Assembly (NCBI GenBank): GCA_015484945.1
Contig: WFUO01000053.1
Location: 1 to 60,719, forward strand
Length of the DNA stretch: 60,719 nucleotides
Source of the DNA: Gammaproteobacteria bacterium
GTDB taxonomy: Bacteria > Pseudomonadota > Gammaproteobacteria > WFUO01
Reading direction: 5' to 3'
The notes beneath the pieces are model-generated. The model was not told the DNA's origin. It saw only the letters and a list, made by a program, of their open reading frames with translations, and ran no database searches. The translations under genes and the position numbers were made by a program. This document shows positions 3,066 through 40,902 of this stretch, in pieces. Each line of letters opens with the position of its first letter. Position 1 is the stretch's first letter.

Positions 3066-6000
3066 TCAGAATTTCCCGTAATAACCCTCTTTCAGGGCAT
3101 CGTAGAGATTCGCCGCGGTATGGATCTCGCCGTCATACTCGATCTCCTCGTTGCCCTTGACCTCGACCACCGAGCCGTCCTCGAGTGTGAAGCGGTAGGT
3201 GGTGTTCTCGAGATCCTGCTCCTTGACCAGCACGCCCTGGAACACCTCGGGATTGAAACGGAAGGTCGTGCAGCCCTTGAGCCCCTGCTTGTAGGCATAC
3301 AGATAGATGTCCTTGAAATCGTCGAACGGAAATTCGGTCGGCACGTTGGCGGTCTTGGAGATCGACGAGTCGATCCATTTTTGCGCCGCGGCCTGCACAT
3401 CGACATGCTCGCGCGGGGTGATGTCATCGGCCGAGATGAAATAGTCCGGCAGTTTTTCGTCCTCGTTCTCGGCGAACGGCATGGCCTTGTCGTTGACCAG
3501 CTCGCGGTAGGCGAGCAACTCGAACGAATAGACATCGACCTTTTCCTTGGTCTTCTTGCCCTCGCGGATCACGTTGCGCGAATAGTGATGAGCGAAACTC
3601 GGCTCGATGCCGTTGCTGGCGTTGTTGGCCAGCGACAGCGAGATCGTGCCGGTGGGCGCGATCGAGCTGTGGTGCGTGAAGCGCGCGCCAGTCTCTTCCA
3701 GGGCCTTGACAAGGTCGGGATCGACCTCGGCCACCTGCTGCATGTAGCGGCTGTAGCGCGCATGCAGCACCTTGCCCTTGACCTTGTCGCCGACCTTGTA
3801 GCCGTCGCGCTTCATCTCCGGGCGCCTGCGCAGCATCTCGCCTGTTACCTCGAATTCCTCTTCCATGATCGGCGCCGGTCCCTTCTCGCGCGCCAGATCC
3901 AGCGCCGTGTGCCAACCTGTCAGGGCCAGCTCGCGGCTGATCCGTTCGGTCAGCTCCAGCGACTTGCGCGAGCCGTACTTCAGGCCCAGCATGGTCATGG
4001 TCGAACCCAGACCGAGGAAACCCATGCCGTGACGCCGCTTGCGCAGGATCTCGTCGCGCTGGCCTTCCAGCGGCAGGCCGTTGATCTCGACCACGTTGTC
4101 GAGCATGCGCGTGAACACCGACACCACCTTGCGGTATTCGTCCCAGTCGAACCAGGCCTTGTCGGTGAACGGCTCGCGTACGAAACGGGTCAGGTTGACC
4201 GAGCCGAGCAGACACGAACCATACGGTGGCAGCGGTTGCTCACCGCAGTTGTGCGCATGCAGCCCATTGGCGTCGAAGGTGTTGATGCCCGGTACCTGGA
4301 CATCATAGACATCTTCCACGCCATCCGGCGTCAGCCCGCTCACCGTGGCCACGAACCGTTCACGGTTCAGGCGCCGCCGGTACGCGCCGAGCAACCGCTT
4401 CAGCCGCGTTGCCTTGTCGCAATCTGCAAAACCCACGAGTTCCTGGAAACGTTGCAGATTCTCTCCACTGACGACCAACTCGTGCTGCACCTGAACGCCA
4501 TACCCGGCCTTGCCCTCCTTGCCATCTGGCAGGACGGCGGATGGTGCCTGCCGGCGGTCGCGATAGATACGGGAATTGATGCCAAGGCGCAACAACATGC
4601 GCTGCACAGCCTCCAGGCGCGGCAGGTCGGATTGCGCCAGGCGCACGCTGACGCCCCTGGCCTGACCATCCTGTACCGAGCCGTTGGCATCGAAGAAGCC
4701 ACGCAGAAAACCCCGGTAACAGTCGCTCGAGGCCTTCTCCAGTTCAGGCGTGATCGCCTTGTCACCGGGCCGCATGCCCACCGCTTTGGCCAGGCGCCCG
4801 AGCGCCGCCAGTGACAGGCGGAACTCGTTGCGTCCGGGAACTGCCTGCCAGCCGTGAAAATCCGCCCGATGCGGCAGTGTTCCTGCCGCCCTGAGCGCCT
4901 CGGCCATCACCGCTTCGACACCGCCCGGCACGCCGGCCACCGCCCCGTTGGCCACGGCCGCGGACTTCCATACGGAAAGCACCGCCTCGTCTGAGTTGAG
5001 CGCGCCATCACCCACCAGCAGCCCGAGCAAATAACCTTCTTCGCGGGTAAAGCGACCCGGCCAGGAAGCATCCCGTCGATGATCGTTCAGCAACACCTTG
5101 TCTCCCGCCCGCAGACGACCCGCTTCACACCATTCCGTCTCGACGGCATGACGGGTGTAGCGCACCACCTTCCGTACCCGATGGTCGGTAGTCAGTCTCA
5201 GCCGATGGCCTTCAGCAGTGGCAAGCCGCACGACCTCCTTGGTGGCCGTGCGGAAGAAGCCCTGTTCGCCAGAGGCGAAATCCACACCATCGATACGCGC
5301 CTGGAAAGGCTTGCCGACGAGTTCCCGAACCTGGCGCGGCCCTGCCGATGTATGCACCCAGGTATCCGCGGTCACACAGGGGTTGGTGGCGCGAATGTTC
5401 TCGCAGAACCAGTTGTTGTTCATTTCATTGACCTTGTCAATCAGAATGAACCCCGGTTCGGCGAAATCGTAGGTCGAGGCCATGATCATGTCCCACAGCC
5501 GGCGCGCGCGGATGGTGCGGTAGATCTTGCAGGCGACCTGCCCGTCACCGTTGACGACATACTTGTCCTTGATCGGCCAGTCGCGCCAGATGATCCTGGT
5601 ACTGTCACTGAGGTCGATGTCGTCGGCCTCGGCCTCCTTCTCGGTCAGTGGAAAGGCCAGGTGCCAGTCGGCATCGTTCTCGACCGCTCGCATAAACTCC
5701 TCGGTGATCAGCAATGACAGGTTGAACTGGCGCAGGCGGCCGTCCTCGCGCTTGGCGCGGATGAAGTCCATGACGTCGGGGTGGCCGACATCGAAGGTTG
5801 CCATCTGCGCGCCGCGCCGGCCGCCGGCCGACGATACCGTAAAGCACATCTTGTCGTAGATATCCATGAACGACAGCGGGCCCGAAGTATAGGCGCCGGC
5901 GCCGGAGACGTAGGCGCCTTTTGGCCGTAAGGTGCTGAATTCATAGCCAATTCCGCAACCGGCTTTCAATGTGAGGCCGGCCTCGTGCACCTTTTCCAGG

Positions 6001-6350
6001 ATGTCGTCCATGGAATCGTGGATCGACCCGGACACCGTGCAGTTGATCGTCGAGGTGGCCGGCTTGTGCTCCCAGGCGCCGGCATTGGATGTGATGCGCC
6101 CGGCCGGGATGGCGCCGTGCCGCAATGCCCAGAGAAACTGCTCGTACCAGCGTTCCCGCAGCTCCGGTGTCGTCTCCACCTCGGCCAGCGCACGCGCCAC
6201 ACGCCGGTAGGTATCGTCGATGGTCTCGTCGATGACCTCGCCGTCCTTGGTCTTGAGGCGGTATTTCTTGTCCCAGATGTCCATCGAGGCCGGCTGGAAC
6301 GGGATATTCGTGACGCTGGTATCGACGGGCTTCAGATGCGCGGATTTCAT
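3066..6350 (-). CDS. nrdJa: Class II (B12-dependent) ribonucleotide reductase NrdJa with intein
   Basis: A 1094-residue precursor for the catalytic subunit of adenosylcobalamin-dependent RNR, reducing ribonucleotides to deoxyribonucleotides. N-extein motifs include SNAGAWEHKPATSTINCTVSG (first redox Cys region), AGCGIGYEFSTLRP and SSAGGRRGAQM. C-extein motifs include CGEQPLPPYGSCLLGSVNL, RRHGMGFLGLGS and the phosphate-binding SIAPTGTISLSLANN. An intein occupies residues 325-701; removing it leaves a 717-residue enzyme. The N-P-C-G-E active-site string typical of the family is rebuilt only after splicing. NrdJb lies just downstream. NrdR-like boxes upstream suggest repression when dNTP/ATP levels are high. 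Confidence 0.93.
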   Translation of the reverse strand: MKSAHLKPVDTSVTNIPFQPASMDIWDKKYRLKTKDGEVIDETIDDTYRRVARALAEVETTPELRERWYEQFLWALRHGAIPAGRITSNAGAWEHKPATSTINCTVSGSIHDSMDDILEKVHEAGLTLKAGCGIGYEFSTLRPKGAYVSGAGAYTSGPLSFMDIYDKMCFTVSSAGGRRGAQMATFDVGHPDVMDFIRAKREDGRLRQFNLSLLITEEFMRAVENDADWHLAFPLTEKEAEADDIDLSDSTRIIWRDWPIKDKYVVNGDGQVACKIYRTIRARRLWDMIMASTYDFAEPGFILIDKVNEMNNNWFCENIRATNPCVTADTWVHTSAGPRQVRELVGKPFQARIDGVDFASGEQGFFRTATKEVVRLATAEGHRLRLTTDHRVRKVVRYTRHAVETEWCEAGRLRAGDKVLLNDHRRDASWPGRFTREEGYLLGLLVGDGALNSDEAVLSVWKSAAVANGAVAGVPGGVEAVMAEALRAAGTLPHRADFHGWQAVPGRNEFRLSLAALGRLAKAVGMRPGDKAITPELEKASSDCYRGFLRGFFDANGSVQDGQARGVSVRLAQSDLPRLEAVQRMLLRLGINSRIYRDRRQAPSAVLPDGKEGKAGYGVQVQHELVVSGENLQRFQELVGFADCDKATRLKRLLGAYRRRLNRERFVATVSGLTPDGVEDVYDVQVPGINTFDANGLHAHNCGEQPLPPYGSCLLGSVNLTRFVREPFTDKAWFDWDEYRKVVSVFTRMLDNVVEINGLPLEGQRDEILRKRRHGMGFLGLGSTMTMLGLKYGSRKSLELTERISRELALTGWHTALDLAREKGPAPIMEEEFEVTGEMLRRRPEMKRDGYKVGDKVKGKVLHARYSRYMQQVAEVDPDLVKALEETGARFTHHSSIAPTGTISLSLANNASNGIEPSFAHHYSRNVIREGKKTKEKVDVYSFELLAYRELVNDKAMPFAENEDEKLPDYFISADDITPREHVDVQAAAQKWIDSSISKTANVPTEFPFDDFKDIYLYAYKQGLKGCTTFRFNPEVFQGVLVKEQDLENTTYRFTLEDGSVVEVKGNEEIEYDGEIHTAANLYDALKEGYYGKF
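4248..5378 (-). other. In-frame LAGLIDADG intein inside NrdJa (377 aa)
   Basis: The intein runs from Cys325 to Asn701 of the precursor. Block A is CVTADTWVHTSAG, with Cys1 following Asn-Pro. Block B is HRLRLTTDHRV, with the conserved T-x-x-H. The end is FDANGLHAHN followed by Cys+1, i.e. the classical His-Asn/Cys splice junction. Between them lie two LAGLIDADG-type blocks, GYLLGLLVGDGAL (intein residues ~115-127) and FLRGFFDANGSV (~224-235), so the homing endonuclease looks complete. All splicing residues are intact, so self-splicing is expected. The host site is the most conserved point of the gene. Confidence 0.93.
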
Positions 6351-9509: not shown

Positions 9510-12503
9510 TCAGGTCGTTAGCCGGCGGTAGATGTCGGAGACGCGCAGCGGCAGTTTGCGTACGTCATCGACGACGGTGTAGTTGACCGCGCCGTACATG
9601 TGCGGCAGGTAGTCGTGCGCCTGGCTATCGATGGTGATGCAGAATGGATGGATGCCGCTGCGGCGGGCCTCGATCAGGGCCATGCGGGTATCCTCGATGC
9701 CGTATTCGCCCCGGTAGCCGTCGAAGTCGTCCGGCTTGCCGTCGGACAGCGTGATCAGCAGCCGGGTGCGGGCCTCGACCTGTTCGAGCAGGTGGGTGAG
9801 ATGGCGTATCGTGACACCCATGCGGGTGTAGTCGCGCGGGGTGATGTTGCAGATGCGCTGGTGCACGGTGTCATCGTAGGCGTCGTCGAAGCGCTTGATC
9901 CGGTACAGCTCGCAACGTTTGCGCGTCATGCCTGAAAAACCGTAGATCGCATAGCGGTCGCCGAGCGTTTCCAGCGCCTCGCACAACAGGATCAGTGACT
10001 CGCGCTCGGCGTCGTTGATCCAGCCCTTGGTGGAACCGCTCATGTCGATCATGAACATCACCGCGATGTTGCGCTCCAGCTTGTGCCGCTTGGTGAACAG
10101 GCGGTCAGTCATCTCCATGCCGCTGCGCACGTCGGCGTGTGCCTCGACCAGGGCGTCGATGTCGATGTCGTCTCCGTGCAGTTGGCGCTTGAGCAGTTTC
10201 TCCTCGCCGCGCAGGGCCTCGAAGGTACGGCGGATATCCTTGACCAGCGCGCTGTAGCGGCGCAGGGTGTCGTGGAAGAAGGCATCCGGCTGCGGGCTGA
10301 TGTCGATCTCGCGCAGTACGCACCAGTTCTTGCGGTAGTGCCCGCGTTTGCAGTCCCATTCGTTGTAGTGCCAGGCCCCTTCTTCGTGATAGGCGCCCTT
10401 CCAGACGTCCTGACTGGGATCGGACTCGGCTTCGGCAGGCGACCAGGCGCCATCACCGGCCGGCACCAGGTACTCGGGCGGGATGTCGCCGAAGTCCTGA
10501 ACGATGGAAGTCATCAGGCTTTCGATCTCGGCCGTGGGCGGCACCACGCGGCCGTCGTATTCGAGCTCGAACACCGGCTGTTCGTCGGTGGATTCGGGGG
10601 CCTGGCGGAGACGGAAACGCTTCGATCCGGCGTTCGTCTCCGGTTCCGGTTCGGGCGCTTCGGGACCGATCTCGTTTTGAAGACGCGCAAGCAGGGTCTG
10701 CCATTCGTTCTTCTGCCTTGCGATGCGCGCCGCGCGCGCCCGCGCCACCTGTTGCGGACGCAGCCCGCCCTCCCAGACCAGCGGGTCCGGCGCCACGCCG
10801 GTGGCGATTGCCGCGTCGAGCAGCCGGGCGCTATCGGCGGCGTTGCTGCCCGCCTGCTGAAGCTCGGCGGCGATATGTTCCCATCCGGTTGGCACCAGCG
10901 CCTGTCCGAGCTGCGCTTCCAGTGCGCGCATCTCGCGCCGGATGCCAGGCAGGTCACGCGCCAGTAACGCATCGGTACGAATACTCTCGAGCCGGTGCAG
11001 GCAGGCCATCGCCAGACCGGCATCCCCGGCATTGGCCAGCACCGCTTCCAGATCTAGATTGAACAGGCCATACCAGCCCAATGCCCACTGATGGACCAGC
11101 ATGGCCTTGTAGAGGGTGAAATTCTGCGCGCGATCCGGCAGCCGGGACAACGTCTCGGGCAGGCATACGGTTTCGCTGTCACTCCAGGCCTGATCCGCGC
11201 TGTCGATCTGCAGCTTGCGGCCGTGCAGGCCATGCACGAACTTTTCCAGCAGGCCCGCGACATCTTCCAGGCGGCAGCCGGTATCGCTGTCACGCAGCCC
11301 GGCGGCGAATTCGTCCACCGCCTGCAGGCGTTTCATTCCGGCATGCAGACCATTGACGTCGTAGGCATCCATGGCGTCGATCAGCCAGGCCTCGACGCCG
11401 GCCTCGTCCATGTGCGTGAACGCGCGCGCCGCGTGACTGGCGAACTGGTAGGCCATTTCGGCGTTGGTGCGCGCGGTGATGTCCACCCAGCGGAATACGA
11501 AGTCCTGCTGCGCGCGGGTACAGTCTGCCAGCGCGCGCGCCGGCCCCGAGGCGGTGCGACGCGACGACAGGATGGGGTCGAGCGGTACGTCGAGGCGTTC
11601 CTCGATGCGTTCGGCGCTCAGCGGCGGCAGGCCGTCGGCGGCCTGCAGGTGATCCTCGTCATCGTGCCAGCAAGCGGCTGTGGCGGCAACGAGCTCGCGC
11701 CCGTCGGCGCTTGTCAGCCCGATCTCGAGGCTGCGCGTACGCCGGCCGGGAAACGCGTCGCGCAACATTTGCGCGAGGCTGTCCACGCTCCACGAACGGT
11801 CCTGCAACGACAGCCACACACCCCGGCAGTGCGGGCTGGCCAGACGCGGCAGACCCGCGACCAGCGGGGTCAGGTCACAATCGATGTCCCACGACTGACT
11901 GCCAGGCCCGCGTTGCCAGGCACGCGGGCGCACGATCATGAGATCGAAATCACGCTGTTCACGCAGGCAGCGTTCAAACACCGCGGTGGCGTTGTCATGC
12001 AGCCACTCGACATCGGGCGAGTCGATATGACGCTGAGCGAGCGCCAGCAATTGCCCGTCGGCCTCCACGTGCACGACGCTGGCCCCCGTGTCCAGTGCCG
12101 CGCCGGTGACGCTGCCGCTGCCGGCAAACAGGTTGAGCACCCGCAGTTCGCCGAGGTGATAACAGCCCGACAACTGCTCGCGCACCCACCGCCGGCAAGC
12201 GATCAGCTCTGGTTCCACCCCGGTGCTGCCGTCGTCACGCAGTTGTACGGTCATTTCCTGTCCGTCGAGCCGCATCGACCAGCTGCGTGGCAGCGCCGGA
12301 TCGCCCGCCTGCCAGCGGCCCGCGGCGCCAACCCGATGCCAGGACCAGTCGGCCTGCCATTCCTGCATGGCCGGCTCGCCGGTGGCGCGCGCATCGGGAC
12401 GATCGACCACATAGGGGCCGAGACGCTCGAGACGCCGGCCATGACCGAAATCGAGCAGGCTGTAGTCGTCCAGCGTGGCCGGCAGGCAAATACGTTCGCT
12501 CAT
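9510..12503 (-). CDS. cbbO: CbbO-like VWA protein fused to an N-terminal methyltransferase-like domain
   Basis: A 997-residue protein from ATG 12503 (GAGGGGGG upstream). Residues ~1-310 resemble the COG1092-type SAM methyltransferase fold: DFGHGRRLERLGPYVVDRP, motif I VLNLFAGSGS (122-131), an acidic EAD (147-149) and motif IV DLMIVRPRAW (187-196), where the usual D-P-P is replaced by R-P-R. The rest follows the CbbO/NorD pattern and ends in a von Willebrand A domain with an intact MIDAS (DMSGS, about residue 818), later GFSG and TLSDGKPDD. CbbO couples the CbbQ AAA+ motor to RuBisCO. The nearby cbbQ supports that role. Standard CbbO lacks the front domain. Confidence 0.82.
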   Translation of the reverse strand: MSERICLPATLDDYSLLDFGHGRRLERLGPYVVDRPDARATGEPAMQEWQADWSWHRVGAAGRWQAGDPALPRSWSMRLDGQEMTVQLRDDGSTGVEPELIACRRWVREQLSGCYHLGELRVLNLFAGSGSVTGAALDTGASVVHVEADGQLLALAQRHIDSPDVEWLHDNATAVFERCLREQRDFDLMIVRPRAWQRGPGSQSWDIDCDLTPLVAGLPRLASPHCRGVWLSLQDRSWSVDSLAQMLRDAFPGRRTRSLEIGLTSADGRELVAATAACWHDDEDHLQAADGLPPLSAERIEERLDVPLDPILSSRRTASGPARALADCTRAQQDFVFRWVDITARTNAEMAYQFASHAARAFTHMDEAGVEAWLIDAMDAYDVNGLHAGMKRLQAVDEFAAGLRDSDTGCRLEDVAGLLEKFVHGLHGRKLQIDSADQAWSDSETVCLPETLSRLPDRAQNFTLYKAMLVHQWALGWYGLFNLDLEAVLANAGDAGLAMACLHRLESIRTDALLARDLPGIRREMRALEAQLGQALVPTGWEHIAAELQQAGSNAADSARLLDAAIATGVAPDPLVWEGGLRPQQVARARAARIARQKNEWQTLLARLQNEIGPEAPEPEPETNAGSKRFRLRQAPESTDEQPVFELEYDGRVVPPTAEIESLMTSIVQDFGDIPPEYLVPAGDGAWSPAEAESDPSQDVWKGAYHEEGAWHYNEWDCKRGHYRKNWCVLREIDISPQPDAFFHDTLRRYSALVKDIRRTFEALRGEEKLLKRQLHGDDIDIDALVEAHADVRSGMEMTDRLFTKRHKLERNIAVMFMIDMSGSTKGWINDAERESLILLCEALETLGDRYAIYGFSGMTRKRCELYRIKRFDDAYDDTVHQRICNITPRDYTRMGVTIRHLTHLLEQVEARTRLLITLSDGKPDDFDGYRGEYGIEDTRMALIEARRSGIHPFCITIDSQAHDYLPHMYGAVNYTVVDDVRKLPLRVSDIYRRLTT

Positions 12504-12643: not shown

Positions 12644-13030
12644 ATGGCCACACTCCAGCATATCATCCTGATCGAGGACGAACCCGACATCCAGACCGTG
12701 GTCCGCATGGCGCTGGAGATGATGGGCGGCTACCAGGTAACCACGTTCGATTCCGGCGAGGCGGCCGTGGCCGGCATCGACGGGCTGCGGCCCGACCTGA
12801 TCCTGCTGGATGTGATGATGCCGGGCATGGATGGTCCGACGACGCTTGGCCATCTGCGCGCCAAGCCGGCACTCGCCGACACGCCGGTGGTGTTCATGAC
12901 CGCCAAGGTGCAGCCGCAGGAGATCCAGACCTACCGTGATCTGGGCGCCATGGACGTGATCGCCAAACCCTTCGACCCGATGACGCTGGCCGACCAGGTG
13001 CGCGAGATCTGGGAACGCCATACGGCGTAG
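12644..13030 (+). CDS. Single-domain response regulator (CheY-like)
   Basis: A 128-residue receiver domain without an output domain. Visible residues are the acidic pocket (LIEDEPD), the phospho-acceptor Asp in DLILLDVMMPGMDGP, the conserved Thr in VVFMTAKVQ and the Lys in VIAKPFDPMT. It would relay phosphate in a phosphorelay or switch a protein partner; no histidine kinase lies nearby. The start is placed at ATG 12644 (MATLQHIILIEDE); the frame is open further upstream but overlaps the cbbO start region. It sits on the opposite strand between cbbO and cbbQ. Its link to RuBisCO activation is only positional. Confidence 0.9.
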   Translation: MATLQHIILIEDEPDIQTVVRMALEMMGGYQVTTFDSGEAAVAGIDGLRPDLILLDVMMPGMDGPTTLGHLRAKPALADTPVVFMTAKVQPQEIQTYRDLGAMDVIAKPFDPMTLADQVREIWERHTA

Positions 13031-13203: not shown

Positions 13204-14016
13204 TCAGAAAACCGAGGCGCTGAGCTCATTGACCGCGCCGAGCATTTCCGGGTCGTCGGTCAGGGCCTCAGAGATGGCGCTGCGGCAGGCATGCACCGGG
13301 TCGATGCCCGAAGCAATCAGCTTGGCGGCATGCACCAGCAGGCGCGTGCTGGCGCCCTCTTCCAGACCGCTGCCTTTGAGATTGCGGGTCATGTGGGCAA
13401 AACGCACCAGGCGCTCGGCCATGGCTTCATCGACGCCGGACTCGGCCATGATGATCTCGCGTTCGAGGGCCTGGCCCGGGTAATCGAACTCCAGCGCCAC
13501 GAAACGCTGGCGGGTGCTCTGCTTGAGATCCTTGAGCACACTCTGGTAACCGGGGTTGTAGGAGATCGCCAGACAGAACTCCGGCGGCGCCTCGAGCAGC
13601 TCGCCGAGTTTTTCGATCGGCAACACGCGACGGTCGTCGGCCAGCGGATGAATGACCACGGTGGTATCCTTGCGCGCCTCGACGATCTCGTCCAGGTAGC
13701 AGATGCCGCCGCAACGCACCGCGCGCGCCAGCGGCCCGTCCACCCAGACGGTCTCGCCGCCGCTGACCAGATAGCGCCCGACCAGATCCGACGCCGTCAG
13801 GTCGTCGTGGCACGACACGGTGATCAACGGCCGCTGCAAACGCCAGGCCATGTACTCCATGAACCGGGTCTTGCCACAACCGGTCGGCCCCTTGAGCAAT
13901 ACCGGCAGGCCATTGCGCCATGCCGCCTCGAAGATCGCCACCTCGTTGCCCACCGGGGCGTAGTATGGCTCTTTCTCGATCAGGTATTCTTCCGGTTTCA
14001 GTACGCTTGCCTGCAC
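13204..14016 (-). CDS. cbbQ: CbbQ-type MoxR AAA+ ATPase (RuBisCO activase motor)
   Basis: A 270-residue protein. I place the start at GTG 14016, which has an AGGAGGT ribosome binding site, giving (V)[18 protein letters not shown]; the frame extends eight codons further with no such site. Walker A is GPTGCGKT, Walker B is [10 protein letters not shown], sensor 1 lies near [10 protein letters not shown], and an arginine-finger region is at [14 protein letters not shown]. CbbQ hexamers partner CbbO to remodel inhibited RuBisCO; NirQ/NorQ relatives activate nitric oxide reductase. With a CbbO-like gene downstream the Cbb assignment is favoured, but RuBisCO is not in the window and NorQ is a possible alternative. 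Confidence 0.85.
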
Positions 14017-14295
14017 GCGACCTCCTGCGGCTGCCTTCAAAAATCCCAGTGTTTCACTCGCATATTTACCGTACCGGGCCGCTGTCCGCTCTGCAACATA
14101 AATAAGTTATATAGACATTCTATTTGCTTATTTGAAAATTCGATTGTCCAGCAGTACTTTACGCTGGCAGAGCCGAATAAAGCAGAGTAGGGTATAGGCT
14201 CCCGAATTTTCCCGGATGGCGGTCCTGACAACAGCTATTTCTATACGCCCTCCGGCCGGATTTCAAAAAGCAACATCCTTAATGGAGGAGTATCG

Positions 14296-15582
14296 ATGTC
14301 GGAGATAGTCGCTAGCAACGAGACCATCCTGGTCGTCGGCGGCGGTATCAGCGGCATGACCGCGGCCCTCGAGGCAGCCGAGTGTGGCAAGCAGGTGATC
14401 CTGCTTGAAAAGACCCCGGCCCTGGGCGGACGCGTCAGCCAGCTTTACCGTTATTTCCCGAAACTGTGCCATCCGACCTGTGGTCTGGAGATCAACCTGC
14501 GCCGTGTCAAGGCCAACCCGAATCTCAGGGTGCTGACCATGGCCGAGGTCACCGCGGTCTCGGGCGATGCCGGCAACTACAGCGTCAAGGTCAGGATCAG
14601 CCCGCGCTACGTCAACGAGAACTGCACCGCCTGTGGCGAATGCGAAAAGGCCGTCGAGGCCGAATTCGACGACGAGTTCAACTACGGGCTGGGCAAGCGC
14701 AAGGGCGCGTATCTGCCACACAAAATGGCCTTCCCGCAGCGCTATGTGATCGACCCGGCCATCATCGGTACCGCTGATGCCGACAAGGCAAAAGAGGCCT
14801 GCAAGTATGGCGCCATCGATCTCGACATGCAGGAACAGGAGATCGAGCTGACCGTGGGCGCGATCATCTGGGCCACCGGCTGGCGCCCCTACGATGCGGC
14901 CAGGATCCAGCCCTATGGCTACGACCGCATCGCCAATGTCATCACCAGCGTCGAGTTCGAACGCATGGCCGATCCGTACGGCCCCACCGGCGGCAAGCTG
15001 CTGCGCCCGTCGGATGGCAAGGAGGCGAAGGACATCGCCTTCATCCAGTGCGCCGGTTCGCGTGACCGCAACCACCTCAAGCACTGCTCGCGCATCTGCT
15101 GCATGGCCAGCCTCAAGCAGTCCACCTACGTGACCGAGAAACACGGCGAGGACGGCAAGGCGACCATCTACTATATCGATATCCGCGCCATCGACCGTAT
15201 CGATGACTTCTACCGCAAGGTCAAGGAAAACCCGAACGTTTCGTTCATCAAGTCCAAGGTGGCCAACATCGTCGAAGACAAGGAGACCGGCAACCCGGTG
15301 CTGCGCGGCGTGGACACCGAGGGCTATCACCGCTACGAGAACCCACACGATCTGGTCGTTCTGGCCGTGGGCATGGAACCCAGCGTTCCGGCCGACGCCT
15401 TCCCGGTCGATGTCGAGATCAACGAGGAAGGGTTCATTGAAGCAAGTCCTGACAATGGCGCGGTATTCGCCGCCGGCTGCTCGTCCGACGCACTGGACGT
15501 CAACCGCGCGGTTCAGAGCGCCACGGCCAGTGCGTTGCGCGCCATTCAGGTCATCAACCGCGCTGCAGGAACGGAGGGTTAA
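14296..15582 (+). CDS. qmoA: QmoA-type flavoprotein (HdrA-like subunit of quinone-interacting oxidoreductase)
   Basis: A 428-residue protein with a GGAGGAG ribosome binding site. The N-terminal FAD-binding Rossmann motif is ILVVGGGISGM, followed by LLEKTPALGGRVSQL. Cysteine motifs include CHPTCGLEINLRRV, CTACGECEKA and IQCAGSRDRN...CSRICCMASLKQ, as in HdrA/QmoA. The C-terminal FAD contact is VFAAGCSSDALDVNRAVQSA. QmoA is a cytoplasmic subunit of the Qmo complex that links APS reductase to the quinone pool; in sulfur oxidisers it would take electrons from AprBA. It is the first gene of the four-gene operon ending at the terminator at 19377. Confidence 0.93.
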   Translation: MSEIVASNETILVVGGGISGMTAALEAAECGKQVILLEKTPALGGRVSQLYRYFPKLCHPTCGLEINLRRVKANPNLRVLTMAEVTAVSGDAGNYSVKVRISPRYVNENCTACGECEKAVEAEFDDEFNYGLGKRKGAYLPHKMAFPQRYVIDPAIIGTADADKAKEACKYGAIDLDMQEQEIELTVGAIIWATGWRPYDAARIQPYGYDRIANVITSVEFERMADPYGPTGGKLLRPSDGKEAKDIAFIQCAGSRDRNHLKHCSRICCMASLKQSTYVTEKHGEDGKATIYYIDIRAIDRIDDFYRKVKENPNVSFIKSKVANIVEDKETGNPVLRGVDTEGYHRYENPHDLVVLAVGMEPSVPADAFPVDVEINEEGFIEASPDNGAVFAAGCSSDALDVNRAVQSATASALRAIQVINRAAGTEG

Positions 15583-15587
15583 TCGAC

Positions 15588-17804
15588 ATGTCAGACGAAA
15601 AGAAAACCGGTTGCTACATCTGCAAGGGCTGCGGTATCGGCGAACGCCTGAACACCTCGCAGATGGCCACCATCGCCGAGCGCGAGGCGCGCGCCAACAT
15701 CGTGCGTGAACACGATTTCCTGTGCAGCGCCGAAGGCGTGGCCATGATCCAGAACGACATCGACAACGAGGGGGTCAACCACATCGCCATCGTTGCCTGC
15801 TCGCGCCGCGCCAAGACCGAGGCGTTCAACTTCGACGGCGTGGCCATCTCGCGTGGCAATATCCGTGAAGGTGTAATCTGGGTGCGCCCGGACACCGACG
15901 AGGCGCAGGAAACCACCCAGGAAATGGCCGAGGACTACACCCGCATGGCGGTGTTCGAGGTCAACGCCATGAACGTGCCCAAGCCCAGCGGCGAGGCCGA
16001 GGGCCAGACCAACATCCTCATCGTTGGCGGCGGCCTGTCCGGCATGACTGCGGCCATCGAGGCCTCCAAGGCCGGCTACAAGTGCACCATCGTCGAGAAA
16101 AGCGGCGCCCTGGGCGGTCACGCGGCCCAGGCCTGGAAGCGCATTCCGCAACACGCGCCGTACAAGGACCCGGAAGACACCGGCATCGACGAGATGATCG
16201 CCGCAATCGAGGCCGATCCCAACATCGAGGTATGCCTGAACTCGCGGGTCACGCGCACCAGTGGCGCGCCCGGCCGTTTCTCGGCAGACATCAGCACCGA
16301 GTCCGGCGATACCAAGACCGAAAACTTCGGTGCCATCATCCAGGCCTCGGGCTACACCGATCACGATGTCAGCCATATCGACAAGCTCGGCTACGGCAAT
16401 GCCGATGTCATCACCCAGGCCGAACTGGAGGCCCTGGCGCGCGAGGCCAATGGCGGCCCGATCAAGCGCCCGTCGGATGGCAAGGAAGTCGCCAACGTGG
16501 TGTTCATCCAGTGCGCCGGCCAGCGTTCCGACGAGGAAGGCCACCTGCCCTACTGCTCGGGTCACTGCTGCCTGACCTCGATCAAGCAGGCCATGTATTT
16601 CAAGGATCAGAACCCCGACATCGACACCACCATCCTGTACGACGACCTGCGCACACCCGGTGCCGGCGGCGAGGACTTCTACCGCTCGGGCCAGGACAAG
16701 CAGGTCATCTTCACCAAGGGTGCCGTCAACCAGATCTCCTCGTCCGGCAACGGCGCCAAGGTCAACTTCAAGGACCGCATCCTCGACGAGGATGTCGAGA
16801 TCGAGGCCGATCTGGTCGTGCTGGCCACCGGCATGGTGCCCAACAGCGGCGTCAACATCGACGAGGTGCCGCAGGACGAGCCGGGCCAGTTCGAGGTCAG
16901 TGTCGATTCCATCCTCAACCTGACCTACCGTCAGGGCAAGGACGTACCGCAGCTCAAATACGGGTTCAGTGATTCGCACTTCATCTGCTTCCCGTACGAA
17001 ACTCGCCGCACCGGCATCTACACCGCCGGACCGGTGCGCCGGCCGATGGACGACCAGCAGGCCATCGAGGACGCCACCGGCGCCGCGCTCAAGGCCATCC
17101 AGGCGGCCGAGAACGCGCAACTGGGCCGTGCCGCCCACCCGCGTTCCGGCGACCTGAGCTATCCCAGCTTCCGCCGCGAGGGTTGCACGCAGTGCAAGCG
17201 CTGCACGGTGGAATGCCCGTTCGGCGCCATCGACGAGGATGAGGAACGGTATCCGAAGTTCAACGAAGGTCGCTGCCGCCGTTGCGGTACCTGTATGGGC
17301 GCCTGCCCGGTGCGCGTGATCTCGTTCGAGAACTATTCGGTGGATACCATTGGCCAGCAGATCAAGAACATCGACATCCCTGACGAGTTCGACGAAAAAC
17401 CGCGCATCCTGGTACTGGCATGCGAGAACGATGCCTACCCGGCGCTCGACATGGCCGGCATGGCCGGGGTCGAATACTCGGCCTTCGCCCGCGTCATCCC
17501 GGTACGCTGTCTCGGCTCCACCAACCTGATCTGGGTGACGGACGCGCTCAACAGCGGTTACGACGGGTGCGTGCTGATGGGCTGCCAGAAAGGTGAAAAC
17601 TATCAGTGCCACTTCGTCAAGGGGTCTGAAATGGCCCACTACCGCATGAGCAAGGTCGATGACACCCTGCAGTCCCTGAGCCTTGAACCGGAACGCGTCG
17701 CCACCTATGAGGTGGCCATCACCGACATCGAACGCGCGCCCCAGCTGATCAACGACATGGCGGAAACCATCGAGCGGATCGGCATGAGCCCGTTCAAGTT
17801 CTGA
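15588..17804 (+). CDS. qmoB: QmoB-type HdrA/MvhD-like flavo-iron-sulfur protein
   Basis: A 738-residue protein 5 bp after qmoA. It begins with a CYICKGCGIG cysteine motif. An FAD domain follows (NILIVGGGLSGMTAA, about residues 140-155; VEKSGALGGHAAQAW), then IQCAGQRSDEEG with CSGHCCLTSIKQ. Two [4Fe-4S] ferredoxin motifs (CTQCKRCTVECPFGAI and CRRCGTCMGACPVRV) lie near residue 530-580. The C-terminus is an MvhD-like domain (ILVLACENDAYP, VRCLGSTN, GCQKGENYQCHFVKG). This order matches QmoB. It would pass electrons between AprBA, QmoA and the HdrCB-like membrane-side module. Confidence 0.93.
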   Translation: MSDEKKTGCYICKGCGIGERLNTSQMATIAEREARANIVREHDFLCSAEGVAMIQNDIDNEGVNHIAIVACSRRAKTEAFNFDGVAISRGNIREGVIWVRPDTDEAQETTQEMAEDYTRMAVFEVNAMNVPKPSGEAEGQTNILIVGGGLSGMTAAIEASKAGYKCTIVEKSGALGGHAAQAWKRIPQHAPYKDPEDTGIDEMIAAIEADPNIEVCLNSRVTRTSGAPGRFSADISTESGDTKTENFGAIIQASGYTDHDVSHIDKLGYGNADVITQAELEALAREANGGPIKRPSDGKEVANVVFIQCAGQRSDEEGHLPYCSGHCCLTSIKQAMYFKDQNPDIDTTILYDDLRTPGAGGEDFYRSGQDKQVIFTKGAVNQISSSGNGAKVNFKDRILDEDVEIEADLVVLATGMVPNSGVNIDEVPQDEPGQFEVSVDSILNLTYRQGKDVPQLKYGFSDSHFICFPYETRRTGIYTAGPVRRPMDDQQAIEDATGAALKAIQAAENAQLGRAAHPRSGDLSYPSFRREGCTQCKRCTVECPFGAIDEDEERYPKFNEGRCRRCGTCMGACPVRVISFENYSVDTIGQQIKNIDIPDEFDEKPRILVLACENDAYPALDMAGMAGVEYSAFARVIPVRCLGSTNLIWVTDALNSGYDGCVLMGCQKGENYQCHFVKGSEMAHYRMSKVDDTLQSLSLEPERVATYEVAITDIERAPQLINDMAETIERIGMSPFKF

Positions 17805-17815
17805 GGAGCAGAGAC

Positions 17816-18442
17816 ATGAGCAACATGAATACCGCAATGATCGAAAAATACCGCAACAACTTCCTCAAGGAAGTCGAAGCGAACGTCGAGGAAGGCGAAT
17901 GGGTCAAGATGTGCATGCAGTGCGGCGTCTGCTCGGGTTCCTGCCCGCTGGGGCCGTACTGGGATCATCCACCGCAGGAGATCTTCATGATGATCCGCGC
18001 CGGCAAGCGCGAGGAAGTGCTGAGTTCCTCATCGATGTGGATGTGCACCTCGTGCTACAACTGCATCGCGCGCTGCCCGCGCGGCCTGCCCATCACGCAC
18101 ATCATGCACGGCCTGGCTCACTACGCCGACCGTCTCGGCCTGGCGCCCAAGGAACAACCGACGCGCAAGTTCGCCAAGCATTTCTGGGACAACCTGACCA
18201 AGAAGGGCCGTGTGAACGAACTCAAGCTGGGCCTCAAGCTGTACTTCATGAACGGTTTTGGCGAAGGCATAAAGACCGCCATGAAGATGAAGGACGTTGG
18301 CCTTGGCATGTGGAAGAGCAAGCGCCTGAGTATCGGCGAGCTCTGGGGTGGCCATTCCATCAAGGACACCAAGGGCTTGCACGCCATCCTCAACAAGGCG
18401 CGTGAAATCGAAGAAGCAAAAGCCAAGAAGTTCGAAGGCTGA
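17816..18442 (+). CDS. hdrC: HdrC-like iron-sulfur protein of the Qmo-type complex
   Basis: A 208-residue soluble protein with two [4Fe-4S] motifs, CMQCGVCSGSCPLGP near residue 40 and CTSCYNCIARCPRGLPI near residue 80, followed by a helical C-terminal half. No membrane segments are visible. Canonical QmoC fuses such a domain to a cytochrome b-like membrane part; here that part is absent and a separate HdrB-like gene follows. QmoAB combined with HdrCB is an arrangement known from several sulfur oxidisers. The spacing to qmoB is 11 bp, so the two are cotranscribed. Confidence 0.88.
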   Translation: MSNMNTAMIEKYRNNFLKEVEANVEEGEWVKMCMQCGVCSGSCPLGPYWDHPPQEIFMMIRAGKREEVLSSSSMWMCTSCYNCIARCPRGLPITHIMHGLAHYADRLGLAPKEQPTRKFAKHFWDNLTKKGRVNELKLGLKLYFMNGFGEGIKTAMKMKDVGLGMWKSKRLSIGELWGGHSIKDTKGLHAILNKAREIEEAKAKKFEG

Positions 18443-18453
18443 GGACACAGACA

Positions 18454-19353
18454 ATGGCTAAGAAAGAATATTCATTTTACCCCGGCTGTTCATCACAGAA
18501 GGCGGCCTCCGCCTCCAACTACCAGGTGTCGATCGACTCGATGTGCGATGTGCTCGACATCCAGCTCAACGAGATCCCGGACTGGAATTGCTGCTCGGCA
18601 TCCATCGGCTATGCCGGTGGTGGCGAACTGCCGCGTCTGGCGCTGTCGGCGCGCAACATGGCGCTGTCCGAGCAGGCGCATCCCGACCAGGACATCGTCG
18701 CCACGTGCGCGGCCTGCTGGCTGGCCACCAAGGAAACCCAGGAACGCCTGCACGATGACAGCGCGCTGATGGAGGAAACCAACCAGGCGCTGGCCGAGGC
18801 CGGCCTCAAGGTCAAGGCCGACAAGAACATCCGCCACATGGTCGAGGTGCTGATAGAGGACATCGGCTACGACGAGCTGGGCAGCAAGGTGCAGAAACCG
18901 CTGGAAGGCATCAAGATCGCCGGCTATGTCGGCTGCCAGACCAACCGCCCGTTCGGTATCGCCGGTGAGTCGTTCGAGAACCCCAAGTATCTCGACAAGC
19001 TGGTCGAGACCATGGGCGCCGATCCGGTCGAGAACTACGACCGCAAGGTATCCTGCTGCGGTGGCGCGCTGGCCTTCTCGGAACCCGAAAAGAGCCAGGC
19101 GCTGATCAAGGAGATCATCGAGGCTGCCTACGATGGCGGCGCGGACATGATCGTCACACCTTGCCCGGTATGCCAGATGAACGTGGAGGTCTATCAGAAT
19201 CATATCAACAAGACCTACAACACCAAGTTCAACATGCCGGTCGTCTATTACTCCACACTGATGTCGGTGGCCTACGGCAAGTCGGCCAAGGAGGCAGGGC
19301 TCGACGGCCAGGTCATTCGCGCCAAAAAGCTGGAGGAGATCGCCGGCAAGTAA
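18454..19353 (+). CDS. hdrB: HdrB-like CCG-domain protein of the Qmo-type complex
   Basis: A 299-residue protein with two CCG cysteine-rich domains. The first uses YPGCSSQ, WNCCSASIGYAGG and CAACW; the second uses GYVGCQTN, SCCGGALAFSEP and TPCPVCQMNVEVYQ. In HdrB such motifs bind the non-cubane [4Fe-4S] clusters that act on disulfides; in the Qmo context the substrate side is thought to face quinone or another carrier. All cysteines expected from the family are present. It is the last gene of the operon, 11 bp after hdrC, and is followed by a strong terminator. Confidence 0.88.
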   Translation: MAKKEYSFYPGCSSQKAASASNYQVSIDSMCDVLDIQLNEIPDWNCCSASIGYAGGGELPRLALSARNMALSEQAHPDQDIVATCAACWLATKETQERLHDDSALMEETNQALAEAGLKVKADKNIRHMVEVLIEDIGYDELGSKVQKPLEGIKIAGYVGCQTNRPFGIAGESFENPKYLDKLVETMGADPVENYDRKVSCCGGALAFSEPEKSQALIKEIIEAAYDGGADMIVTPCPVCQMNVEVYQNHINKTYNTKFNMPVVYYSTLMSVAYGKSAKEAGLDGQVIRAKKLEEIAGK

Positions 19354-28613: not shown

Positions 28614-29513
28614 TCACTCGCCCATATTGTCGTAAACGTCGTTTTTGGCCTCGTGTTCGGCAATAGCGATCTTGCGCCGCAGCTCGATGACCTCCTTGCG
28701 CTCCTCGACCCGCTTCTCCACCGCGCCCTCGACAAGCTCGATGGTGTGCTCGCCGAACAGCACCTGACGCATCATACGGTAGGCAAATTTCAGGCGTTCC
28801 ACCTCGTCGTCGATGATCAGATCGAATTCATGATCCTCGATCTTGTAGATGTTACGGAAATTCTTTGACAGCAGAAAATCCTTGAACCGGTCCATGTCAT
28901 AACTGCACATAAAGAAGAACTGCAGGCTCATCTCGGACGGTTTTCCAACCGTCGGACCGCTGGAGCGCTTTTTCAGGATCATCTGGTACCAGCCATGATT
29001 CAAATCATCATATTCCTCGACACCCTGCTCCCGGCGGTAGTTGCGAATCGTCGTCTTGCGGATGGAGCAATGACCCTGGCAATGGTTCTCCTTGACAAGG
29101 AAATATTTCTGTTCATCCACGGGTGAGCCAATCGGGCGCAGCGCCATCAGGCCAACCGGGTAGTAACGGCAGGCAGCGGGTCGATCTTCATAAACCGTGC
29201 AACCCTTTTCTTCGTCCATGAACAGGCATACGGCATCTTCATCGGTCTTCATCTTGATGCCTGGCAGGCCATGCGCATCCAGTTCCACCGGCACCGTATG
29301 CTCGCGCAGGAATTCCGTGGAGGTCATGCCCAGACGCTTTTTCAAACGAATCACATCATAGGGTGTCAGCGGCAGATCGGCCTGTTTGCAGCATTCATTG
29401 AAACAGGAAATACCGGGATGACAATTGAAAGTGATTTCGCTGTCGAGCTTCAGTTCCTCGGGTACGAGACTGCTCTTGAACGGAATCTCGAAATCGGTTT
29501 TTTTCTCACTCAT
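28614..29513 (-). CDS. YkgJ-family cysteine-cluster protein
   Basis: A 299-residue protein with the YkgJ/UPF0153 cysteine arrangement. There is a first group in FNCHPGISCFNECCKQADLPL and a second at VCLFMDEEKGCTVYEDRPAAC, followed by RYYPVG. A further pair is at NHCQGHCSIRK. Such clusters are thought to bind zinc or an iron-sulfur centre. The C-terminal half is charged and helical. It lies downstream of aprA on the same strand, separated by a terminator, so cotranscription is unlikely. Function in this family is poorly known. Confidence 0.8.
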   Translation of the reverse strand: MSEKKTDFEIPFKSSLVPEELKLDSEITFNCHPGISCFNECCKQADLPLTPYDVIRLKKRLGMTSTEFLREHTVPVELDAHGLPGIKMKTDEDAVCLFMDEEKGCTVYEDRPAACRYYPVGLMALRPIGSPVDEQKYFLVKENHCQGHCSIRKTTIRNYRREQGVEEYDDLNHGWYQMILKKRSSGPTVGKPSEMSLQFFFMCSYDMDRFKDFLLSKNFRNIYKIEDHEFDLIIDDEVERLKFAYRMMRQVLFGEHTIELVEGAVEKRVEERKEVIELRRKIAIAEHEAKNDVYDNMGE

Positions 29514-29676: not shown

Positions 29677-31599
29677 TTACTTGAACAGCTTGGTCTTGTC
29701 CACGATATCGACGTGTTCGACCTTCTTGCAGGTCCAGGTTTTGGTCTTCCTGTCGTATGTCGAGTTGACGAAGCACTTCCAGTTTTCTTCGTCGATGAAG
29801 TTCTTGTCCATACGATAGTAGAAACCCGGATACCGCGTTTCCTCACGGAACTGGATGTGCTTGAGGTGAGCTTCCGCCGTCAGAATGCGGTGGTAGTTCT
29901 CCCAGGCACGCAGCAGTTCGTGCAGGTCCTTGGCGCGCATCTTGTCGGCGTCTTCCTTGAGCATTTCCAGCTTCTCTTCACAAACCTTGAGCATGTGCTC
30001 GTTGGTCTGGTACATGGTCGCGACACCCGCACAGTATTCGTCCATGATCTTCTGCAGGCGGAACTGCAGCATCTTGGGCGTGATGTAGTTCGGGTTCACG
30101 TCGATGGCCGTGGTGTAGTCCTTGTGCTCGAGATAGTTCATGACCGGCTTGTAGATTTCCTTGACCAGGTCTTCGACACTGTCTTCGAGCTCCGGCTTGT
30201 AGTCCTTGTTGTCCATGACGTACTTGACCATGGCCTTGGCCGCGATACGTCCTTCGGCATGCGAACCGGACGAGAACTTGTGGCCGGAGGCGCCCACGCC
30301 GTCGCCAGCGGTGAACAGGCCGTTGACGGTGGTCATCGAGCGGTAGCCCCAGTGCCAGGATTCCGGCGCGCCAACGTCTTCCGGACCGGATACCCAGATA
30401 CCGCAGCAGCCCGAGTGAGAACCCAGCAGGTACGGCTCGGTCGGCATCAGCTCGGACGGCTTCTTCTCCGGCTCGATGTTCTCACCGGCCCAGACACCGG
30501 CCTGACCGATACACATGTCGAGGAAGTCTTCCCAGGCCTCGGCTTCGAGGTGCTTGATTTCCTTCGGCGTCATGGTTTCGGCCAGCTTGGCCAGGGCGGT
30601 CGGGGTGTCCATGTAGATGGGACCACGGCCTTCGCGCATTTCCTTCATCATCAGGTGGTTGCGCAGGCAGGACGCCGGAACGGCCGCCTGGCCATAGGGC
30701 GGATAGTCGTCCAGGAGTTCCTTGTTGGTCTCCATATAGACTTCGCCAAACGCGTTGGTGGCCTTGGCCTTGAACAGCAGGAACCAGGCGCCTACCGGAC
30801 CGTAACCGTCCTTGAAGCGGGCGGGTACGAAACGGTTTTCCATCATGGTCAGCTCGGCGCCGGCCTCTGCGGCCATGGCATAGGTGGAACCGGCGTTCCA
30901 GACCGGATACCAGGCGCGGCCCGTGCCTTCACCCACCGAACGCGGACGGAAGATGTTGACGCAGCCACCTGCCACCAGCAGGATGGCCTTGGCCTTGTAA
31001 ACGAAGACCTTGTCTTCGCGCACCGAGAAACCGACGGCGCCGGCGATCTTGGTGGGATCGTTCTTGTCGTTGACCAGCTTGACGATGAAGATACGCTCGT
31101 CGATGTTTTCCATGCCCAGGGCCTTCTTGGCGGCCTCGGCGACGATCCACTTGTAGGATTCACCGTTGATCATGATCTGCCACTTGCCCGAACGCACCGG
31201 CTTACCGCCTTCGACCAGCGGCTTGCCTTCATCGCCCGGCTGTTTCCAGATCGGCAGACCCCATTCCTCGAACAGGTGTACCGAGTCATCCACGTGACGG
31301 CCCAGGTCGTAGGCCAGGTCATCACGGGTGATGCCCATCAGGTCGTTGGAAACCATGCGCGCATAGTCAGCCGGATCGTTTTCACCCAGGTAGGTGTTGA
31401 TGGCCGACAGCCCCTGGGCAACGGCGCCCGAGCGGTCCAGCGCCGCCTTGTCCACCAGCTTGACGGTGATGTCGCCGCCGGCGGCCTTGATCCACGGACC
31501 GAGTTCGTAGGCCGCGCCACACGCAGCCATGCCGCCGCCAATGATGAGAATATCGACTTCTTCTTCGACGACTTCAGGATTTCCGAATTCTCCTGCCAT
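29677..31599 (-). CDS. aprA: Adenylylsulfate (APS) reductase alpha subunit AprA
   Basis: A 640-residue flavoprotein of the fumarate reductase/succinate dehydrogenase flavoprotein superfamily. The FAD motif DILIIGGGMAACGAAYELG is at residues ~13-31. Typical AprA segments are ALDRSGAVAQGLSAINTYLG, GRAWYPVWNAGSTYAMAAEA, MMENRFVPARFKDGYGPVGA, LLGSHSGCCGIWVSGPEDVG and RSMTTVNGLFTAGDGVGASG. It interconverts APS and sulfite plus AMP in the cytoplasm; with Soe, Qmo and Sat nearby, the oxidative direction is likely. It is cotranscribed with aprB upstream (55 bp gap). Confidence 0.96.
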   Translation of the reverse strand: MAGEFGNPEVVEEEVDILIIGGGMAACGAAYELGPWIKAAGGDITVKLVDKAALDRSGAVAQGLSAINTYLGENDPADYARMVSNDLMGITRDDLAYDLGRHVDDSVHLFEEWGLPIWKQPGDEGKPLVEGGKPVRSGKWQIMINGESYKWIVAEAAKKALGMENIDERIFIVKLVNDKNDPTKIAGAVGFSVREDKVFVYKAKAILLVAGGCVNIFRPRSVGEGTGRAWYPVWNAGSTYAMAAEAGAELTMMENRFVPARFKDGYGPVGAWFLLFKAKATNAFGEVYMETNKELLDDYPPYGQAAVPASCLRNHLMMKEMREGRGPIYMDTPTALAKLAETMTPKEIKHLEAEAWEDFLDMCIGQAGVWAGENIEPEKKPSELMPTEPYLLGSHSGCCGIWVSGPEDVGAPESWHWGYRSMTTVNGLFTAGDGVGASGHKFSSGSHAEGRIAAKAMVKYVMDNKDYKPELEDSVEDLVKEIYKPVMNYLEHKDYTTAIDVNPNYITPKMLQFRLQKIMDEYCAGVATMYQTNEHMLKVCEEKLEMLKEDADKMRAKDLHELLRAWENYHRILTAEAHLKHIQFREETRYPGFYYRMDKNFIDEENWKCFVNSTYDRKTKTWTCKKVEHVDIVDKTKLFK

Positions 31600-31654: not shown

Positions 31655-32122
31655 TTACTTGCGGATCAGTTCAGACGGATCGCCCGGCTTCTGCACACCA
31701 CCCAGGTTGAAGAAACCCGGTTCGCCGATCTTGGAGATGTCGGCTTCCGGCTTGCCGGCATACGGTTCGATGGAACCTTCGGCCGTGGTGCGGATCGGGA
31801 ACTTGAAGCGCTTCATGTTGCCGTTGCGGAACTTGATGGTCCACATGATGGAGTCAGTACCGCGCAACGGCTGTACAGAGGCACCCAGAGGTACGATATC
31901 AGCATAGTGGCGGGCTTCGATGGCCTGCTGGGGGCAGATCTTGACGCAGGAATAGCATTCCCAGCACTGCTCGGGCTCCTGGTTGAAGGCCTTCATGGCG
32001 TGACCCGTTTCCGAGCCATCCTTGTCGAGCTTCATCAGGTCGTGCGGGCAGATATACATGCAAGCCGTCTTGTCCTGACCCTTGCAACCATCACACTTGT
32101 CGGTGCGTACGAAAGTAGGCAT
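31655..32122 (-). CDS. aprB: APS reductase beta subunit AprB
   Basis: A 155-residue ferredoxin-like protein. Its two [4Fe-4S] motifs are CDGCKGQDKTACMYICPHD and CWECYSCVKICPQQAIEAR. The C-terminal extension (IMWTIKFRNGNMKRFKFPI onward) wraps AprA in known structures. It carries electrons between AprA FAD and the membrane partner, here most likely QmoAB-HdrCB. It has a good GGAGAG ribosome binding site and is first in the aprBA operon. No AprM gene is seen nearby, consistent with Qmo serving as the membrane link. Confidence 0.96.
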   Translation of the reverse strand: MPTFVRTDKCDGCKGQDKTACMYICPHDLMKLDKDGSETGHAMKAFNQEPEQCWECYSCVKICPQQAIEARHYADIVPLGASVQPLRGTDSIMWTIKFRNGNMKRFKFPIRTTAEGSIEPYAGKPEADISKIGEPGFFNLGGVQKPGDPSELIRK

Positions 32123-40475: not shown

Positions 40476-40902
40476 ATGGTGTTGACCCGGACATGATCTG
40501 GCAGCCCTGTCCCGGTTGTAGTGGTTCGACTTGACCCGACAAGGCAAGAGTGAGACCCGGCGCCAGTATCGGACGATACGCTATCCGGTCAGCGGCCAGT
40601 CATCCTGGCCCGGTGTCATGTGAATTCTGCGGGCGCGACACAAAGGCGCGGTCTGTTTGGACGCTGGCCTGTCAGATCAGGTCTGAACTACCAGACTGGA
40701 TACACGCCTCTATTGACTGAATTTATGCTGGCATTACAAATCTGAAAGTCGAAACCGTCACAAAAGCCCCCGGATTTTGCGGCGGTTTGCTATAGTGCGG
40801 AAACTGGCAGCCCTGGCTGCAACACCCGCGTCACGGACACCGAATCACCGGCGGACAGGAAGGCCCTGGCCGCCACTGGCTATCGTTAAAGAGGATGTGA
40901 AC
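40476..40902. other. Spacer upstream of sat
   Basis: About 427 bp without a convincing gene. An open frame continues upstream of the sat start but has no family-like sequence. A possible promoter for sat is TTGACT (40713-40718) and TACAAA (40735-40740) with a 16-bp spacer; the -10 matches only four of six positions. Nothing else is evident. Confidence 0.35.

Follow-up and report, generated by a model that had tools for sequence, protein, structure and literature searches.

The gene at positions 9510-12503 (minus strand) of the window, the 60,719-nt contig analysed here, encodes a 997-aa protein in which a methyltransferase-derived N-terminal domain is followed by a helical middle domain, a linker and a VWA domain. 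Based on sequence and phylogeny, this protein and a MoxR-class AAA+ ATPase encoded nearby represent a third, previously unnamed branch of the NorQ/CbbQ-type MoxR AAA+/VWA machines. The family forms clades of its own and is associated with apr and qmo genes. What the pair acts on, and how, we infer as follows: with a probability of roughly 55%, it is a machine serving APS reductase (AprBA) and its Qmo electron partner, to which the methyltransferase-derived domain was added in a subclade. A literature search found no paper naming a MoxR/VWA pair with APS reductase, nor one on a CbbO-methyltransferase fusion.

Architecture and origin of the fusion protein

The fusion frame (9513-12503, minus strand) was unbroken for 997 codons from an ATG at 12503, in agreement with the continuous frame with one start described in the initial annotation; read from an upstream TTG instead, the protein would be 1011 aa long. 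A survey of other genomes had been proposed with that annotation, and it recovered the same fusion repeatedly. The entire 997-residue architecture was present in five loci of the genome collection (L021-L025; 50-55% identity over residues 1-997), of which L025 is located on the complete chromosome CP070733. Additionally, the class survey identified full fused homologues in G155, G121 (a single-contig genome), G204 and G263, as well as fused forms at contig ends in G067 and G185; G045 and G098 appear to equal the genomes of L024 and L023. The assembly of the window is fragmented (65 contigs, 76% complete), as would suit an assembly chimera or a sequencing error, but such an origin of the fusion is extremely improbable, because at least nine other genomes have co-linear homologues of full length and independent assemblies, including CP070733 and G121, show the same architecture at the identity given above. 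Neither of the two findings that had been named as speaking against a fusion was made: the N-terminal part was not a normal part of CbbO, and the two halves were not genes split by an error.

Ordinary unfused members of the family were approximately 705 aa long and began at fusion residue 294-295. In the tree of the shared part, nine of ten fused forms grouped in one clade (support 87) and the tenth was located nearby, so a single origin of the fusion is likely; judging from this grouping, the methyltransferase domain most likely joined the adaptor once, in one gammaproteobacterial subclade. Two further long frames, L095 in G258 (~1000 aa) and L096 in G212 (877 aa), were considered as fusions and rejected; their upstream parts were not methyltransferase-like, appear to be out-of-frame readings across the AAA+ gene, and were left out of the fusion count.

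An AlphaFold2 (AF2) model of the fusion protein was built on 22 homologues (mean pLDDT 77). The conserved helical middle domain (residues 295-612; 10668-11621, minus strand), which marks the start of the unfused members, was modelled with a pLDDT of mostly ~90, and a separate model of residues 291-720 was well folded to approximately residue 610. Against the PDB, Foldseek (E<=0.001) and a profile search gave no match for this domain; it was weakly related to NorD (hhalign probability 93 over 72 columns). The NorD-type VWA domain (residues 709-997; 9513-10379, minus strand) had an intact MIDAS (D820, S822, S824, T893 and D921), with the DMSGS motif at 820, T893 and D921 invariant in the 22 homologues. 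Its Pfam match to VWA_2 (residues 815-922) was weak and under the gathering score, and the PDB sequence search matched residues 709-995 to NorD with an E of 3e-54. Moreover, the AF2 model of the VWA part aligned with the NorD structures 9qh6 (Z 27.6) and 9qhd (Z ~27). With a MoxR-class ATPase gene and a VWA protein carrying an intact MIDAS, the locus holds what generally makes up a MoxR AAA+/VWA pair.

The AAA+ partner and its link to apr and qmo genes

The AAA+ gene (13204-14040, minus strand; CbbQ/NorQ-like, PF07728 and PF08406, CbbQ_C) is the next but one to the fusion gene. Between the two partner genes lies a gene for a single-domain response regulator (12644-13030, start approximate, plus strand; PF00072, E 4e-27); in other loci this place is taken by different genes or is empty, and an Hpt protein is encoded near the pair in L090. 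Divergent from the pair are the Qmo genes on the plus strand, including qmoA (14296-15582), qmoB (15588-17804; PF02662 FlpD, flavin and ferredoxin domains) and the hdrC-like (17816-18442) and hdrB-like (18454-19353; PF02754 CCG) subunit genes of the Qmo complex. The APS reductase genes are located 15-18 kb past the pair on the minus strand, with aprA at 29677-31599 (TIGR02061, 945 bits, above the cut-off) and aprB at 31655-32122, and sat (ATP sulfurylase; 40777-42093, plus strand; PF01747, E 2e-75) lies beyond. AprB carried the KGQDK loop of Qmo-type (lineage II) enzymes, which has been assigned to Qmo docking (PMC2211403). An intergenic promoter scan gave matches at chance level.

Among the 72 family loci, qmoA was linked in 20, aprA in 9 and any apr, qmo or sat gene in 27. 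Specifically, L031 and L035 showed the order sat-aprB-aprA-ykgJ-AAA+-VWA on one strand, and L061 was the same but cut in the VWA gene. In L049 the order was aprM-like-aprB-aprA-x-x-AAA+-VWA, and L058 was similar. A gene for a YkgJ-type CxxCxxCC metal-chelating protein (PF03692) stands beside aprBA in the window (28614-29513, minus strand); in L031, L035 and L061 it separates aprA from the AAA+ gene. This protein is possibly an accessory factor of APS reductase, and its occurrence in apr operons points tentatively to the insertion of a cofactor or metal.

Two trees separated the family from its known relatives. In the AAA+ tree, 46 rows formed one clade (support 99) apart from CbbQ (support 99) and NorQ, and in the VWA tree 68 rows formed one clade (support 100) apart from CbbO (support 100) and NorD. 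The AAA+ protein was 56-62% identical to RuBisCO-linked CbbQ, 60-64% to most NorQ and up to 84% within its own clade, and the VWA part alone was 28-34% identical to RuBisCO-linked CbbO and 37-41% to NorD. NorQ-NorD, the pair that inserts FeB into cNOR (PMC13036017, PMC9976466), is similar in these identities, in the NorD-like VWA model (Z 27) and in an adaptor built of an N-terminal domain, a linker and a C-terminal VWA domain. Unlike NorQ-NorD, the window pair is linked to apr/qmo and not to norCB, its middle domain is weakly related, and its adaptor has a methyltransferase-derived domain of 300 aa in front. The RuBisCO activase CbbQ-CbbO (PMC4660213) shares the MoxR partner, a C-terminal MIDAS VWA adaptor and a weak similarity in the N-terminal region, whereas CbbO is ~770 aa long and the window family has no RuBisCO linkage and occurs in RuBisCO-free genomes.

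In 274 gammaproteobacterial genomes, the family was found in 47. AprA was present in 40 of these 47 carriers (odds ratio 24, p 6e-18), QmoA was present in 35 (odds ratio 41, p 3e-22), and RuBisCO was also enriched (p 4e-7), all as counts that ignore common descent. Among AprA+ genomes RuBisCO was not associated with the family (p 0.55), whereas among RuBisCO+ genomes Qmo was (p 6e-17). Because the RuBisCO effect vanishes within AprA+ genomes, this enrichment looks secondary to sulfur oxidizers fixing CO2. A further 32 carrier genomes included 27 with AprA, 17 with RuBisCO and 12 with AprA but without RuBisCO, the last among them complete chromosomes of L025 (fused), L043 and L050.

The initial annotation had identified the fusion protein as CbbO and considered that its extra domain might recognise or methylate RuBisCO. 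A CbbQ-like AAA+ partner, a VWA domain and the presence of RuBisCO in the host agree with a CbbQO activase of this kind. However, the same genome has another cbbQO on contig C33, where RuBisCO is followed by separate Q (302 aa) and O (780 aa) genes, and RuBisCO was near none of the 72 family loci as against 10 of 10 CbbO reference loci. Together with the distinct clades, these observations make the CbbO identity highly improbable, and a recognition or methylation of RuBisCO is unsupported because of the missing linkage, the separate cbbQO and the 12 RuBisCO-free AprA+ carriers.

The association has exceptions on both sides. The tie to Apr is not strict: seven of the 47 carriers, of which G098 and G177 are incomplete, had neither AprA nor Qmo (G090, G098, G119, G139, G177, G212 and G217). 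At least five of these (G090, G119, G139, G212 and G217) are nearly complete, and four form one branch, which may serve another target. AprA and QmoA are missing from the genomes of L096, L099, L100 and L101, whose pairs constitute one branch. In addition, 15 Qmo+ genomes were without the family, which is therefore not essential for Qmo. An independent-pairs test on the AprA tree had too few informative pairs. Eight rows of this tree, which was used for the two-lineage picture alone, stood on an extremely long branch and are very probably wrong-frame ORFs from GC-rich sequence. VWA members without an adjacent AAA+ gene were also observed (L103-L110, L102, L048, L056, L059 and L062), some of them second copies beside another form (G062, G125, G146, G155 and G258).

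The methyltransferase-derived N-terminal domain

Residues 1-285 (11649-12503, minus strand) had a methyltransferase fold (2IGT/RlmI-like), as the initial annotation had proposed. Pfam gave a weak match to Methyltrans_SAM (PF10672; residues 57-200, E 7e-4), under the gathering score, while the PDB sequence search matched residues 11-253 to 2IGT with an E of 1e-19. The structure prediction suggested in that annotation gave the same result, with residues 1-282 of the AF2 model aligning to 2IGT at Z 26.9 (rmsd 2.5 over 263 residues, 25% identity). 2IGT is an Agrobacterium SAM-dependent methyltransferase of the RlmI/RlmK-like, PF10672/COG1092 type, and the likeness is in the fold of these residues. 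The glycine-rich SAM loop, correctly noted as retained, was intact (LNLFAGSG, residues 123-130). The R-P-R at residues 192-194 (11922-11930, minus strand), read earlier as standing where D-P-P is expected, aligned with the D-P-P of 2IGT, so the catalytic motif IV (D/N/S-P-P) is absent from the window protein. In the METHYLTRANSFERASE domain, the motif reads TDPPKFGRG in the stand-alone 2IGT, in contrast to VRPRAWQRG in the fused window protein.

In 12 fused forms, motif IV read RPR, RPP (four), DPP (two), SPP, TPP, PVP (two) and NAP, whereas all four stand-alone relatives showed DPP[S/T/A]FGR; a leading D was thus present in all four stand-alone forms but in just 2 of the 12 fused ones (Fisher p 0.008). 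The acidic post-motif-I residue was lost in 4 of the 12 fused forms and kept in the window protein. Positions invariant across six fused forms included an N-terminal DYxLxDFGxGRxLE and a post-motif WD-D stretch. Judged from its coding sequence, the domain evolves under purifying selection; its dN/dS was 0.18 and 0.12 in two close pairs, and in the one pair comparable over the full length it was equal in the domain and in the rest of the protein.

Several genomes carried the methyltransferase without an intact VWA part. In G131 (L083, 8300-10700), the methyltransferase frame was intact as a stand-alone gene with an AAA+ remnant upstream, and after its stop followed an in-frame remnant of the VWA C-terminus. 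G244 and G093 carried a stand-alone methyltransferase gene and no VWA part; the gene was located within the same degP-hsp20 (-nrdJ) neighbourhood or close to it. Because of this pattern, the domain can outlast the AAA+/VWA pair, keeping the catalytic motif when alone. The methyltransferase-domain tree was compatible both with stand-alone forms that descend from fused ones and with the reverse; a single fused clade had an AU p of 0.33.

In the window, the fused domain most likely serves in binding, either of the target or of an adenosine ligand such as SAM, and not in catalysis, because the catalytic motif decayed in most members. That the domain is still an active methyltransferase on the target or a neighbour appears unlikely. 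The retained SAM loop and acidic residue of the window protein, the purifying selection and the persistence of stand-alone L083-L085 with DPP-F-G-R where the VWA gene is lost or a remnant would agree with activity, but the R-P-R of the window, the rarity of D at motif IV and the loss of the acidic residue in other fused forms argue against it, as does the motif loop (residues 196-209), which was modelled with a pLDDT below 50. Some fused forms may be active: D-P-P is retained in L023 and L088 and S-P-P-Y is found in L022, which makes residual methyltransferase activity possible for these three. For the window protein, the role of a nucleotide or SAM sensor, raised in the initial annotation, is possible alongside that of a binding domain.

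Proposed role and alternative targets

To our knowledge, few MoxR/VWA machines have a known target, namely RuBisCO, NO reductase, fumarate reductase and lysine decarboxylase. AprA, which we take to be a member of the fumarate reductase flavoprotein family, gave a match to PF00890, and AprBA is related to fumarate reductase FrdAB. In RavA the C-terminal domain is different. Likened by description and not by sequence, RavA-ViaA is a MoxR/VWA pair in which the VWA domain binds a flavoprotein of AprA's family, FrdA (PMC10585395). In NorQD, a finger of the VWA domain is placed in the AAA+ pore and an ATP-driven pull acts on the linker (PMC13036017). By analogy, the AAA+ ring of the window pair would grip the VWA domain of one adaptor, as in NorQD and RavA-ViaA, while the target is bound via the MIDAS and N-terminal domains. 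Through the ATP-driven pull, a cofactor might then be inserted or matured, an inhibited active site freed or the activity adjusted, and the bound and remodelled target would be AprBA or its complex with Qmo. The 2IGT-like methyltransferase would have been added ahead of the adaptor, with its catalytic motif decaying later in most members. More tentatively, APS reductase may need, or be regulated by, a dedicated MoxR/VWA machine in which one lineage's pseudo-methyltransferase senses an adenosine ligand, either SAM or the APS/AMP handled by APS reductase.

On present data, either AprBA or Qmo may be the target, though the Qmo-free AprA+ carriers favour AprBA. The Qmo/Hdr electron complex instead of AprBA is a rather doubtful candidate. 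The divergent qmoAB-hdrCB genes adjoin the pair in the 20 qmoA-linked loci and the strongest association was with QmoA, but the family also occurs in AprA+ genomes without Qmo (G039, G044, G179 and G184), and in L049, L058 and L115 the AAA+ gene is located by lineage-I aprBA with aprM-like genes. NrdJ, the B12-dependent ribonucleotide reductase encoded near the pair in 14 loci, is a very unlikely target. Within Qmo+ genomes the family showed no association with nrdJ (p 0.51), whereas within nrdJ+ genomes the family was associated with Qmo (p 1e-14); moreover, in L083 and L085, which have lost the pair, the nrdJ-TSCPD-hsp20-degP gene order persists.

If AprBA and its Qmo partner are indeed served by the pair, APS reductase, which is central to the sulfur cycle, would have its own ATP-driven maturation machine, and sulfite oxidation in sulfur bacteria, symbionts among them, would gain a missing step of maturation or control through the third NorQ/CbbQ-type branch. 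This would also account for a possible need for accessory genes when APS reductase or Qmo enzymes are produced or compared. Automatic CbbQ/CbbO labels in sulfur oxidizers can mislead, and this bears on any count that takes such labels as signs of CO2 fixation.

The nrdJ gene of the window (3066-6350, minus strand) carried an intein-like insert, giving 1094 aa against ~710 aa in relatives; none was present in L023, and an insert of similar size was found in L024.
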